Assembly: GCA_947447615.1 (NCBI GenBank)
Contig: CANFJQ010000006.1
Span: forward strand, 1-44,541
Source of the DNA: Comamonadaceae bacterium
Lineage (GTDB): Bacteria; Pseudomonadota; Gammaproteobacteria; Burkholderiales; Burkholderiaceae_C
Length of the DNA stretch: 44,541 nucleotides
Reading direction: 5' to 3'
The translations under genes and the position numbers were made by a program. The first letter of the stretch is position 1. Each line of letters opens with the position of its first letter. Below are positions 38,162 through 43,385 of this stretch, piece after piece. The notes under the pieces were generated by a model. That model was not told where the DNA came from and did no database searches. It saw only the letters and a list, made by a program, of their open reading frames with translations.

Positions 38162-38254
38162 TGGGCCCAAGGCTCATGCGCTGCCCCACAAATAGATCTT
38201 CAAACTGTCAAAAACCCATCTTTATCTATGCGCCATTGGCGTACAATAAATGGC

Positions 38255-38566
38255 ATGGAATTTATTGAGACGCCGACCTTCACGCGTTTGCTTAAGCTGC
38301 TGATGACGGACGAGGAATACCGTCAAATGCAAAATGTCCTGGTGGTAGACCCTGCGTGCGGCAAACTGATCCCAGGCGGCGGGGGCATCCGCAAATTGCG
38401 GCATGCGCTTGCAGGGCGAGGCAAAAGCGCAGGTGTGCGGGCTATTTACTACTGGATCAAAAGCGAACACCAGATTTACATGCTGGTGGTGTACCCCAAA
38501 TCCAGCAAAGACAACCTATCGGACAAAGAGATCGCCGTGTTGCGCGAACTCGTGAAGGAACTCTAA
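38255..38566 (+). CDS. RelE/HigB-type toxin
   Basis: MEFIETPTFTRLLKLLMTDEEYRQMQNVLVVDPACGKLIPGGGGIRKLRHALAGRGKSAGVRAIYYWIKSEHQIYMLVVYPKSSKDNLSDKE. Confidence 0.9.
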   Translation: MEFIETPTFTRLLKLLMTDEEYRQMQNVLVVDPACGKLIPGGGGIRKLRHALAGRGKSAGVRAIYYWIKSEHQIYMLVVYPKSSKDNLSDKEIAVLRELVKEL

Positions 38567-38568
38567 AG

Positions 38569-38859
38569 ATGGACAAAGTTTTGTTTGATGACTTGGTTAA
38601 CAGCTTGCAAGAAGCGCGTGCCATAGCGAAAGGGCAAGCTGGTGCTTCGCGGCGATTTGAACTGCCAGCGCCGGACGCCAAGGCGGTACGCGAGCAGATT
38701 GGTTTGTCACAAAGCGAGTTTGCCGACCTCATGCGCGTGAGTGTCAAAACCCTGCAAAACTGGGAGCAACACCGACGTGAGCCAACCGGGCCAGCCGCTG
38801 CCTTGTTAAAGATTGTGGCCGCTTCACCCCAGCTGGCCTTGAAATCCTTGCACGCCTAA
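38569..38859 (+). CDS. XRE-family helix-turn-helix antitoxin (HigA-like)
   Basis: VREQIGLSQSEFADLMRVSVKTLQNWEQHRREPTGPAAALLKIV; 2 bp downstream of toxin gene. Confidence 0.9.
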   Translation: MDKVLFDDLVNSLQEARAIAKGQAGASRRFELPAPDAKAVREQIGLSQSEFADLMRVSVKTLQNWEQHRREPTGPAAALLKIVAASPQLALKSLHA

Positions 38860-38918: not shown

Positions 38919-39839
38919 CTAATGCCCCAACCCCGCATACGCCAGCGCAATCGCGCAGGCCAGGCGAGCGTTATTGAGCACCAGGGCGATATTCGATGCA
39001 AGGCTGTCGCCGCCAGTAAGTTCGTTGACGCGGGCCAGCAAAAACGGGGTGCTGGCTTTGCCGCTGATGCCTTGGGCGCTGGCTTCTTGCAGGGCCTGGG
39101 CGACGGCGCGGTCTATGGTGCCTCGCTCCATGGCATGCGCTTGCGGTATCGGGTTGGCCACCACCATGCCGCCCGGCAGGCCCAGCGCCCACTGCGCGTG
39201 CATGGCCTTTGCGATAGCGTGCGCGGAGTCCAGCCGGTAGTCCACCTTAAAACCACTTTCGCGGGTAAAAAATGCGGGCAAGGCCTCGGTTTGGTAGCCC
39301 ACTACCGGCACGCCCTGGGTTTCTAAATACTCCAAGGTTAGGCGCAAATCGAGTATCGACTTCGCCCCCGCGCACACCACCGCCACGGGGGTTTGCGCCA
39401 GCTCTTGCAAGTCCGCCGAGATATCAAAACTTTGCTCCGCGCCCCGGTGTACGCCGCCGATGCCGCCAGTGGCAAACACGCGTATGCCCGCCAGCGCGGC
39501 GATGCGCATGGTGGCGGCCACGGTGGTCGCGCCATCAGCGCCTGCGGCCACGACAAAGCCCATGTCGCGGCGGCTAACCTTGGTCACCGCATGGCCGGCG
39601 CGGCCCAGGCGCTCGATCTGCGCGGCGGACAAACCGGCTTGCAAGCGTCCCTGCACGATAGCCACCGTGGCCGGCACGGCGCCATGGGCGCGCACTTCGG
39701 CCTCGACCCGCAGCGCCGTCTCAACATTCTGCGGGTACGGCATGCCGTGCGAAATAATGGTGGACTCCAAAGCCACCACCGCCTGCCCTTGGGCCAGGGC
39801 GGTTTGTACTTCGGGGGCGATGTCTAAATACGGGTTCAT
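38919..39839 (-). CDS. psuG: Pseudouridine-5'-phosphate glycosidase
   Basis: ALESTIISHGMPYPQNVETALRVEAEVRAHGAVPATVAIVQGRLQAGLS..., FATGGIGGVHRGAEQSFDISADLQEL; internal ATG at 39839 used. Confidence 0.94.
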   Translation of the reverse strand: MNPYLDIAPEVQTALAQGQAVVALESTIISHGMPYPQNVETALRVEAEVRAHGAVPATVAIVQGRLQAGLSAAQIERLGRAGHAVTKVSRRDMGFVVAAGADGATTVAATMRIAALAGIRVFATGGIGGVHRGAEQSFDISADLQELAQTPVAVVCAGAKSILDLRLTLEYLETQGVPVVGYQTEALPAFFTRESGFKVDYRLDSAHAIAKAMHAQWALGLPGGMVVANPIPQAHAMERGTIDRAVAQALQEASAQGISGKASTPFLLARVNELTGGDSLASNIALVLNNARLACAIALAYAGLGH

Positions 39840-40768
39840 AGTAGGGTGTGTTGCATGTGGTGTTGCACGGCCTGCACGCTCAGCGCCGAGGCGTTGGCTG
39901 CAGGGCTGCCTAAGGTAATTTCGGCACAGGCCATGGCCCACGCCAGCGCCTTCTCTAGCGGCCAGCCCTGCAAGTGACCATACACCAAGCCGCCCATCAA
40001 GGCATCGCCCGCGCCGGTAGCGCTGAGCACCGGCACTGCGCGCGCCGCGCGGTGGCCGCAGCGGCCATCGGCATCGCACCAGGCCACGCCTTGCGCGCCC
40101 AGGCTGATCAGCACCCGGCCCACGCCCTGGCGGTGCAAGGCCAGCGCAGCGTCGCACGCGTCTTGCGTGCTGGCAATAGTGCGGCCCCACAAAGCCTGCG
40201 CTTCCAAGCGGTTGGCCTTCAGCGTGTGGACATGCGCCAGCACCGCGCCCAGACGCGTGCACTTGGCCACCGACACCGCCTCGGCAAACAGCGCCGGGTG
40301 CGCCACCTCGGTGGCCAGCCACTGCCACACATCGGGCCGCAAATTGCAGTCCGCCACCAACACCGCCGCGCTGCGCAAGAGCGCCACGTGCGGCTGCAAT
40401 AGTGCAGGCGTGAGCGCGTCCATGATGTCCATGTCGTTGACCGCCACATCCATATCGCCATCGGCGCGGTGCAGGCACACATAGGTTGCGCTGCGCTGGC
40501 CGGGCAGCGTCAGGCAGGCACGCATATCCAGCCCCATGGCCGCGCCCGATTGCCGCAAAGCCTGGCCAAACACATCGTCGCCCAGCGCCCCCAGCAAGCG
40601 CGCGTGTTGCCCCAGGCGCACCAAGTTTTCCGCCACATTGCGCGCAACCCCGCCGGGGCTGCACTGCACCTGGCCGGGATTGGAATCGCCCGCACGCAGC
40701 GCGCTGTGCGCATGAACGGAGACATCCATGTTGATGCCGCCTAGGAGGGTGATGTGGGGTGGGGACAT
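39836..40768 (-). CDS. psuK: PfkB-family carbohydrate kinase, probable pseudouridine kinase
   Basis: LGGINMDVSVHAHSALRAGDSNPGQVQCSPGGVARNVAENLVRLG..., SATGAGDALMGGLVYG; 4-bp overlap with psuG. Confidence 0.88.
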   Translation of the reverse strand: MSPPHITLLGGINMDVSVHAHSALRAGDSNPGQVQCSPGGVARNVAENLVRLGQHARLLGALGDDVFGQALRQSGAAMGLDMRACLTLPGQRSATYVCLHRADGDMDVAVNDMDIMDALTPALLQPHVALLRSAAVLVADCNLRPDVWQWLATEVAHPALFAEAVSVAKCTRLGAVLAHVHTLKANRLEAQALWGRTIASTQDACDAALALHRQGVGRVLISLGAQGVAWCDADGRCGHRAARAVPVLSATGAGDALMGGLVYGHLQGWPLEKALAWAMACAEITLGSPAANASALSVQAVQHHMQHTLL

Positions 40769-40984
40769 GGGCGTGCAGCGCAAAGGCCGCCGTACTGTAC
40801 TTCAGGCGAGATAGCCGACCTAAGCAGCCTCCACACCGCAGTCGCGCACCGTGGGCAGTGGCTAAAAAATATTTTCAGCCGGTAAATGAATTTGCCATTT
40901 TGATTCCCGAAAAATACCAAAAATAATTATTTCAATATTCGTTACTAAATAAACTATGAATTCACATTTTCAATCTATTGAGTT

Positions 40985-42214
40985 ATGGCAAATCGCAACT
41001 TATCCAGCGCGAAGCGGGCAAAAAACGACGAGTTTTATACGCAGTTCGTTGATATCCAAAGAGAAATGGAAGCCTATTTGGAGTACGACGCCCAAACTTT
41101 CAAAGGCAAAGTCGTTTACTGCAACTGCGACGACCCCTACGAGAGCAACTTCTTTCGTTACTTCGTGTTGAACTTTAAAAAGCTGGGGCTCAAGCGCCTG
41201 ATCACCACCAGCTATAAGCCCTCGCCCTTGGCCAACACCCAACTGCCCTTGTTTGGCAATGACAGCACGCTTGCGCCCGCTAAAGGACGACCAAAAGTCA
41301 ACGCCAACAAGTTCATCATCAACAAAGTGCACGCTATCAACGGCAATGGCAGCTTTAATTTAAAAGATGTAGCCCAAGAGCTCAGGGCGAACAAGGTCAA
41401 CACATGGGCGCCGCTGCAAGGTGATGGCGATTTTCGAAGTGCAGAGTGCATCCAATTATTGGAACAGGCAGATATTGTCGTAACCAATCCACCATTTAGT
41501 TTGTTTCGAGACTATGTGAAACAACTAATGGAGCACGGAAAGAAGTTTGTGATTGTCGGCAGCAAAAATGCGATCACTTACAAGGAAATTTTTCCGCTGA
41601 TTATGTCCAATCAGGTTTGGACAGGAGTTACCGGCTTTACTAAAGACATGTATTTTTTGCCACCGCCAGATATAGATCTGAGTGACAAACCAAAGACGGC
41701 ATTGCGTTGCATTGATGGAATCACCTATTTGCGCTCGCCTTCGATTTGGTTTACGAACCTAGACCATGGTCGCCGCCACCAACCGCTTGCGCTAATGACC
41801 ATGGCCGACAACTTGAAATACAGCCGGCACAAGCAAATCAAGGGAAAGAAAAAATACGAAAAATACGATAACTATGACGCGATTGAAGTTCCATTCACGG
41901 ATGCCATTCCAAGTGATTTCAAAGGTGTTATGGGAGTGCCCATAAGCTTCTTGGATAAATACAACCCAGGCCAGTTTGAAATATTAGGAGCGACTCAACG
42001 CGGCTGCCATGCTGCCGTTCCAGATACCAAAACCTACGATGATTATTGGGAAGTTAGGCAAGACGGCACAGCAACTGGTTCTGGTGGCGGAAAAACAAAT
42101 GAGAACGCCAATTTGGTTGGCAATGATGGAAAGAAAAATTACTTCATAAATTCTAAAGGTCGCATGATTCAATCTGCCTACCAAAGAATTTTCATCAAGC
42201 ATAGGGGAATTTGA
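40985..42214 (+). CDS. M.EcoRI-family adenine-specific DNA methyltransferase
   Basis: Blocks shared with M.EcoRI as I recall it: DEFYTQ, VVYCNCDDPYESNFFRYF, GDGDFRSAE, DIVVTNPPFSLFRDY (motif IV NPPF), ITYKEIFPLI, TNLDHGRRH, KYDNYDAI, DFKGVMGVPISFLDKYNPGQFEI. Confidence 0.93.
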   Translation: MANRNLSSAKRAKNDEFYTQFVDIQREMEAYLEYDAQTFKGKVVYCNCDDPYESNFFRYFVLNFKKLGLKRLITTSYKPSPLANTQLPLFGNDSTLAPAKGRPKVNANKFIINKVHAINGNGSFNLKDVAQELRANKVNTWAPLQGDGDFRSAECIQLLEQADIVVTNPPFSLFRDYVKQLMEHGKKFVIVGSKNAITYKEIFPLIMSNQVWTGVTGFTKDMYFLPPPDIDLSDKPKTALRCIDGITYLRSPSIWFTNLDHGRRHQPLALMTMADNLKYSRHKQIKGKKKYEKYDNYDAIEVPFTDAIPSDFKGVMGVPISFLDKYNPGQFEILGATQRGCHAAVPDTKTYDDYWEVRQDGTATGSGGGKTNENANLVGNDGKKNYFINSKGRMIQSAYQRIFIKHRGI

Positions 42215-42215
42215 A

Positions 42216-43385
42216 ATGCGAACAAATCTCCGAACGGATATCAGCATTCAGGCCATTTGCAAGGGCTTTGTTTACAACGAACTAGAAGGCAAAGGCCTAT
42301 TTGGCTTGTCCGGCAAACTGACCATACAGCCTGAATACCAGCGCAATTACATCTACGCCGCAGAGGGCGGAGGAAAAGAGGTGGCCGTCGTTGAATCGGT
42401 GCTAAGGGGCTATCCACTCGGACTTATCTATTTCAACAAAATTGCTGACGATAGGTTTGAAGTTTTAGACGGGCAGCAACGCATCACCAGCATGGGGCGC
42501 TTTGTGACAGACAAATTCGCCATTCGGGATGGGCAAGGGCATCAGCAATATTTCAGCGGCATGGCCGCAGACAAACGTGCTTTGATTTTGGACACCAAGT
42601 TGCTGGTCTATGAATGCGAAGGAACGGAGAGCGAAATCAAGGAATGGTTCAAAACCATCAATATCGCCGGAGTGCCGCTGAACGAACAAGAGCTCCTGAA
42701 CGCGGTGTATTCTGGCCCGTTTGTCACCTTGGCTAAGGAAGCCTTTAGCAACAGTCAAAACTCCAACATCCATAAATGGAGCACTTACATCAAAGGCACG
42801 GCAATCCGACAAGATTTCTTGGGTTGCGCACTGAAGTGGGTGAGCAAAGGCGATGTTGGTACCTATATGGCTAGCCACAGGAGCGCAACAAATATCCAGG
42901 AACTTGCCACTTACTTTAATACGGTGATTCAATGGGTGGTGTCGGTATTTACAGATGTCGAGAAAGAAATGTGTGGCATTGATTGGGGCCGCTTATACGA
43001 AGAATATCACCATAAGCCTTACACCGCGGCAGAGGTTTCTAAAGTCTTGCAAATACTCTATGGCGATTCGCAGGTGAAAAACCGCAAAGGGATATTTGAA
43101 TATATTTTGGGCGGCTGCACGGATACCAAACTATTAGAAATCCGCGTGTTTGATGAGATGACCAAAAAAGTGGTTTATGGCACCCAAACCCAAACTGCGA
43201 AGATAAAAAACAAATCTAACTGCCCGCTCTGCGCCGTGGGCCCGGAGGCCAACAAGAAAAAAATATGGAGCCTCGCGGACATGGACGCAGACCACGTCAC
43301 GGCTTGGAGCAAGGGTGGCGCCACCGACAAGAAAAACTGCCAGATGCTGTGCAAGACGCACAATCGGGTAAAGGGCAACCGCTAG
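42216..43385 (+). CDS. DUF262 (GmrS/ParB-like) N-terminus with C-terminal HNH endonuclease domain; putative restriction/defence nuclease
   Basis: PEYQRNYIY...VVESVLRGYPLGLIYFNK...FEVLDGQQRITSM (DUF262 DGQQR); C-terminal CPLCAVG...MDADHVTAWSKGGATDKKNCQMLCKTHNRVKGNR (HNH with CxxC). Starts 1 nt after the MTase stop with SD AGGGGA. Confidence 0.9.
   Translation: MRTNLRTDISIQAICKGFVYNELEGKGLFGLSGKLTIQPEYQRNYIYAAEGGGKEVAVVESVLRGYPLGLIYFNKIADDRFEVLDGQQRITSMGRFVTDKFAIRDGQGHQQYFSGMAADKRALILDTKLLVYECEGTESEIKEWFKTINIAGVPLNEQELLNAVYSGPFVTLAKEAFSNSQNSNIHKWSTYIKGTAIRQDFLGCALKWVSKGDVGTYMASHRSATNIQELATYFNTVIQWVVSVFTDVEKEMCGIDWGRLYEEYHHKPYTAAEVSKVLQILYGDSQVKNRKGIFEYILGGCTDTKLLEIRVFDEMTKKVVYGTQTQTAKIKNKSNCPLCAVGPEANKKKIWSLADMDADHVTAWSKGGATDKKNCQMLCKTHNRVKGNR

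Follow-up and report, generated by a model that had tools for sequence, protein, structure and literature searches.

An EcoRI-type methyltransferase with two exchangeable segments as the probable specificity subunit of a GmrSD-type DUF262-HNH nuclease

The window analysed here, a stretch of 44,541 nucleotides from a Comamonadaceae bacterium (GCA_947447615.1, contig CANFJQ010000006.1, positions 1 to 44,541), contains a cassette of two genes on the forward strand. The upstream gene, M (40985..42214, +), encodes an EcoRI-family adenine-N6 DNA methyltransferase of 409 aa, for which we propose the role of modification and specificity subunit. The protein was matched over its whole length by Pfam EcoRI_methylase PF13651 (E=7.1e-124) and over most or all of its length by the PADLOC MTase_II model PDLC03297 (334.6 bits). 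M.EcoRI, which is among the best studied methyltransferases and whose site is GAATTC, is 42% identical to it, the NPPF motif and about 60 conserved positions being common to both. This catalytic motif IV occupies residues 168-171 (41486..41497, +); of 112 relatives, M.EcoRI among them, at least 95% have it. With the PF13651 match and NPPF, M belongs to the EcoRI family of DNA methyltransferases and is expected to produce m6A.

An insert of M that is absent from M.EcoRI includes a degenerate EF-hand-like loop (residues ~116-129; 41330..41371, +). Most clade I relatives have an intact D-x-N/D-G-D-G loop at this place, EF-hand/dockerin-like (e.g. DIDGDGEFNLKDV), and the methyltransferases linked to R.EcoRI lack the insert. 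The loop might bind a metal or serve for the docking of R. The structure model of M was of moderate quality (pLDDT 77) and the fold search with it yielded generic Rossmann folds only, without a close DNA methyltransferase match; a sequence search of solved structures returned no homologue of either M or the partner protein.

The second gene, R (42216..43385, +), follows M after 1 nt (42214/42216) and has its own Shine-Dalgarno-like AGGGGA inside the end of M (42203..42208, +), 8 nt before its ATG. It codes for a protein of 389 aa, a DUF262 (GmrSD_N, ParB/Srx-like)-HNH nuclease by Pfam, PADLOC and an AF2 model, and is our candidate for the effector subunit. Pfam matches were obtained for GmrSD_N/DUF262 (PF03235, E=5.3e-19) and HNH (PF01844, E=1.5e-6), and the PADLOC REase_II model PDLC03418 covered the full length (264 bits); the NCBI family models gave no match. 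The DGQQR motif, a predicted NTP site (residues 85-89; 42468..42482, +), is invariant in 43 relatives, and its presence in a DUF262 domain places R in the GmrSD/DUF262 family. The HNH/zinc-knuckle nuclease core (43203..43382, +), with its CPLC and DH...N...N elements, comprises C336, C339, D359, H360, N374, C379 and N383, all invariant in alignment A2; DGQQR and D359/H360/N374/N383 did not vary in sets of 17 and 43 relatives. The methylase ending at 42214, the DUF262-HNH fusion starting at 42216 and the separate ribosome-binding site of the latter had all been claimed in a preliminary description of this DNA, and were found as described.

Several domains that would assign the locus to other classes were searched for. 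The DUF1524 nuclease domain of Type IV GmrSD proper was not matched in R at E up to 0.1, the nuclease domain being HNH PF01844 instead, and the domain search of R detected neither the SF2 helicase nor the PD-(D/E)XK nuclease that characterise Type III Res. The partner of M is not a PD-(D/E)XK endonuclease of the R.EcoRI type but a PF03235 plus PF01844 protein, and HsdS or HsdR of Type I systems are not present at the two-gene locus. The best PDB fold match of the AF2 model of R (pLDDT 86) was BrxU, a weak one (E=3.5e-3), followed by ParB nucleotide-binding folds and, for the C-terminus, by the Gme HNH nuclease; SspE was matched weakly (E=0.85).

The GC content of M (45.5%) and R (48.9%) is lower than that of the rest of the window upstream (60.0%), and the EcoRI-type methyltransferase family is rare: within this order, 3 genomes out of 400 have a member, and in a phylum sample 5 of 399 do. 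The low GC content and the scarcity within the order make the suggested horizontal acquisition of the cassette well supported. About 2 kb upstream there is a RelE-like toxin gene with an Xre-like HTH antitoxin gene (38228-38859), and a pseudouridine-type catabolic pair, Indigoidine_A (PsuG-like) and PfkB kinase (38922-40783), adjoins the cassette on the opposite strand. Among the loci compared in this analysis, which bear L-numbers, six (L003, L005, L006, L009, L013 and L014) have small Cro/C1-type HTH genes directly upstream that end at the start of M; these were confirmed by Pfam in L005 and L014 and resemble the C (controller) genes of R-M systems. No such controller-like gene precedes M in the window. 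A GAATTC located 27 nt upstream of the M start was considered as a regulatory site and dismissed, since its frequency upstream of M in 85 loci is about that expected by chance (6 occurrences versus 5.8).

Relatives of R were drawn from viral contigs, plasmids, phages and 85,488 species genomes. An EcoRI-type M gene was found directly upstream of R on the same strand in 96 of 102 viral and genome loci; in the remaining 6, the contig starts 1-211 bp before R, too short to tell. The genes mostly overlap or abut, most spacings being between -52 and +21 nt. According to record titles, in which MAG names may be wrong, the hosts include Pseudomonadota, Bacteroidota, Chloroflexota, Clostridia, Patescibacteria, Spirochaetes, Armatimonadetes, Verrucomicrobia and one archaeal MAG, and the pair also occurs on plasmids and in the temperate Flavobacterium phage laban6-1. 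Gene order and spacing are thus kept across many phyla, far beyond what chance would give. The earlier suggestion of an R-M cassette with a DUF262-HNH protein standing in for R.EcoRI holds. Within the R family the mean identity is 69%, and its two clades are about 38% identical to each other. The architecture is already catalogued: the PADLOC models cover both proteins in full or nearly so, and file them as Type II R-M under a label that gives neither mechanism nor TRD behaviour. Our literature search, with most subscription papers outside its scope, found no paper describing an EcoRI-type methyltransferase with a DUF262-HNH nuclease. What is new is the comparison of about 100 pairs, in which variable segments of M stand against a near-constant R.

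In phage laban6-1 (L033 / L126, 10219-12581) the whole cassette adjoins the tape-measure gene on the opposite strand, and GATC is strongly depleted in this phage (33 versus 116 expected). Site avoidance gave no clue to the target: GAATTC shows no exceptional depletion in the window, laban6-1 or the pooled loci, most palindromes being scarce there.

The variation of M is concentrated in two stretches, proposed as target-recognition segments 1 and 2: segment A (residues 215-253; 41627..41743, +), with a mean identity of about 0.2 in relatives, and segment B (residues 335-398; 41987..42178, +), in the beta-rich C-terminal part, with about 0.1. When 109 methyltransferases were clustered at 50% identity, 21 allele clusters were obtained for A and 49 for B. 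In the model of M both segments lie in the beta-rich part that follows the Rossmann-like domain. The 101 DUF262-linked M genes display 82 combinations of A and B, and exchange is visible in either direction: L034 and L094 share A (98%) beside unrelated B (5%), and L003 and L062 share B (89%) beside unlike A (16%). Exchange of B even crosses the R clades, L114 of clade II having the same allele as the clade I loci L043 and L046. The A allele of the window was also found in the archaeal MAG locus L050, and some DUF262-linked members bear an A or B allele of the M.EcoRI type.

The behaviour of methyltransferases linked to R.EcoRI is the opposite. Eight of these, from E. coli, Klebsiella, Leuconostoc, Rhodococcus, Staphylococcus and viral contigs, whose endonucleases, when full length, share 62-100% identity with R.EcoRI, have a single A and a single B allele, and identities of 0.74 in the core, 0.78 in A and 0.83 in B; the values for DUF262-linked enzymes are 0.68, 0.20 and 0.10. 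Base reading by A and B, with the site fixed by R.EcoRI, would lead one to expect such constancy, and we infer that the two segments are the base-reading parts (TRDs) of M.

R does not follow these segments. In 88 distinct pairs, the identity of R was 0.69 whether A was shared or not, and it correlated with that of A at r=0.04, with that of B at r=0.09 and, moderately, with that of the M core at 0.30. Association with A or B alleles at z>3 was seen in 2% of the R columns, versus 24% and 8% of the M core columns. When alleles were placed on the R tree, 48 changes were counted for A (53.9 +/- 2.2 in shuffled labels) and 35 for B (39.7 +/- 1.5 shuffled), the shuffles leaving some sequence relatedness in; the N-terminal type of M follows the tree, with 7 changes versus 20.4 shuffled. 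Columns 331-351 of R, at the zinc knuckle (window 43206-43268), were associated with A at z 2.7-4.2, which is probably due to relatedness, although it could alternatively reflect a small adaptation to M. In L014/L015 and in L064/L067, R differs by 1 residue and the M cores are 94-96% identical, while A and B are unrelated alleles; these pairs look like natural swaps that come close to a controlled experiment. The co-variation of R and M specificity determinants expected of a Type II system, whose nuclease recognises the target on its own, was therefore not apparent in the aligned sequences.

Some loci possess devices that could change B in place. Inverted extra B segments lie between M and R in L013, L014 and L015. 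Inverted repeats, 16-25 nt long, occur where the expressed B begins and also next to these silent B cassettes. A Phage_integrase-family (tyrosine) recombinase gene follows R in these three loci and in L016 (E 4e-27 to 1.5e-29), where a silent B cassette fragment is found at the contig edge. A Bro-N domain gene is situated between the inverted B cassettes and R in L014 (2469-3320) and L015 (4127-4978). In four other loci, dinucleotide tracts run inside B (L020, 21 units; L085, 8; L097, 13; L115, 9). Past each tract all three reading frames reach a stop, with the family C-terminal motif within 14 residues before it. The canonical C-terminal tail is present in 12 of 12 frames, 8 of them alternative ones, compared with 81 of 39198 out-of-frame reads in the null. 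By its architecture, B is phase-variable in loci with inverted cassettes or dinucleotide repeats. In L011, L123 and probably L110, a single R is preceded by two M genes that differ in A and B. In the window copy of M, no repeat tract, silent cassette or recombinase was found, and it is a static member with no visible switch. Individual MAG-derived loci can be chimeric, but the swaps, cassettes and repeats come up repeatedly in records independent of one another.

R also persists beside damaged M genes. On the plasmid of L026, M is broken into three frames and R is intact; on plasmid pK205-4b-C of Enterococcus dispar (L027, 1164-3131), the oxazolidinone/phenicol resistance gene optrA is inserted within segment B, and R is again intact. 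With the exception of the optrA insertion, the breaks in M may be recent events or errors of sequencing. Two loci were left out of this count: Thiomicrorhabdus L136, whose M reading frame proved to be open in an unannotated gene, and Paracoccus L137, in which both genes have decayed.

Taken together, M has its segments replaced, inverted or shifted in frame and R remains the same, so R either gets its target from M or needs none. A nuclease that reads DNA by itself must match its methyltransferase, and could not survive such switching. Since R is found intact where M is broken, cells seem to tolerate R by itself, as they do Type I and Type III nucleases but not classical Type II enzymes. Judged from sequence comparison, M is thus probably a specificity subunit steering the DUF262-HNH nuclease R in a shared-specificity R-M system. 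With somewhat less assurance, we favour a fuller reading, that of a widespread, mis-filed family in which two interchangeable recognition segments of an EcoRI-type methyltransferase program a GmrSD-type DUF262-HNH nuclease, and in which reprogramming occurs by segment exchange, by recombinase inversion or by repeat slippage among three overlapping-frame C-termini. M would then be both modifying enzyme and specificity subunit, its swappable segments A and B setting the specificity, and R would be a general effector, cutting only at unmethylated targets that an M-R assembly encounters, probably once its DUF262 (DGQQR) domain has bound or hydrolysed NTP. If R takes its address from M, a new or phase-switched M allele would alter what is modified and what is restricted at once, as HsdS does in Type I systems and Mod in Type III. 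NTP dependence of R is suggested by its intact DGQQR and by the precedent of GmrSD and BrxU (PMC12707154, PMC4619093). The physical M-R complex, cleavage, NTP use and the targets are likewise what we infer from the genes.

The main rival to an M-guided effector is a sensor of the kind represented by SspE, described as a DUF262-DUF1524 protein acting with a modification module (PMC12707154, PMC8713573). R would sense adenine methylation context-free through DUF262 and attack unmarked incoming DNA, leaving M free to change its motif. This would account for the indifference of R to A and B, and the DUF262 architecture is common to both proteins. However, it needs a context-free m6A reader in R, where none is recognisable, the fold match to SspE is weak, and the constant position of M upstream of R, with mostly overlapping or abutting ends, is left unexplained; we regard it as unlikely. 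The earlier suggestion that the nuclease senses phage modifications misses the family pattern, the indifference of R to the variable segments of M.

An autonomous Type II-like cutter had also been envisaged, in which R would read the site of M by itself, as R.EcoRI does. The two-gene layout and the PADLOC labels agree with an ordinary Type II system, and HNH nucleases are among the catalytic classes known from Type II (PMC4081073). Against it, R shows no co-variation with A and B, which are shuffled and sometimes phase-variable, and can be 1 residue apart beside different alleles; a phase-variable B would expose the host's own sites, R stays intact beside broken M, and true R.EcoRI pairs keep A and B constant. 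This explanation thus appears very improbable. A slightly lower probability still is given to a guard or toxin-like arrangement, with R as a non-specific nuclease restrained by M, as a protein or through its mark, and freed when a phage inhibits M, A and B then varying as the surface targeted by inhibitors. Conserved coupling and hypervariable segments would be understandable on these terms, but the constancy of A and B in R.EcoRI-linked methyltransferases fits base reading rather than inhibitor escape, R persists without an intact M, and the inverted silent cassettes look like hsdS switching.

An effector guided by M would combine traits of several known systems. The methyltransferase family is that of EcoRI R-M, but the nuclease is DUF262-HNH instead of R.EcoRI, M has longer, shuffled A and B segments and an insert, and the gene order is M-R rather than the R-M of the EcoRI plasmids inspected. 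GmrSD, BrxU and SspE (DUF262 plus DUF1524) resemble R in the DUF262 N-terminal domain with DGQQR and a C-terminal HNH-type nuclease; they are about 560-770 aa long, with DUF1524, and act alone on modified DNA, whereas R has 389 aa, with a PF01844 HNH and a Cys knuckle, and obligately adjoins a DNA methyltransferase gene. Variable recognition segments in the methyltransferase subunit, a conserved effector and phase variation by simple repeats are reminiscent of Type III (Mod/Res), although helicase and PD-(D/E)XK Res are lacking and M is of the EcoRI family. Two recombining segments and silent cassettes with inverted repeats and a tyrosine recombinase recall Type I hsdS with invertible TRDs, but here the segments lie within the methyltransferase itself, with no separate S and no HsdR.

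If R is indeed addressed by M, the cassette would be a compact two-protein, reprogrammable DNA-targeting nuclease, with new specificities to be gained by exchange of two short segments of M (about 40 and 20-65 residues). Nature would offer a library of about 20 x 50 alleles, with closely related methyltransferases of known site (GAATTC) as anchors. A large family would move from Type II to a shared-specificity class, a GmrSD-type nuclease would have been turned into a programmable effector, phase-variable methylomes would gain a new kind, and the cassette would be a minimal system in which the role of the DUF262 NTPase becomes testable.

A few loci depart from the usual arrangements. On the Psychrobacter plasmid pA3H10 (L032, 1997-3244), the EcoRI-type methyltransferase is annotated as a RelB/DinJ antitoxin, likely a misannotation, and is followed by a second methyltransferase-like gene. 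R.EcoRI-like endonucleases paired with methyltransferases outside the EcoRI family were found in L129 (1417-3307; 48% identical) and L131 (1106-2976; 30%). An EcoRI-type R-M locus of Rhodococcus (L121, 4828-6618) has a separate DUF262 protein of 597 aa encoded just downstream.
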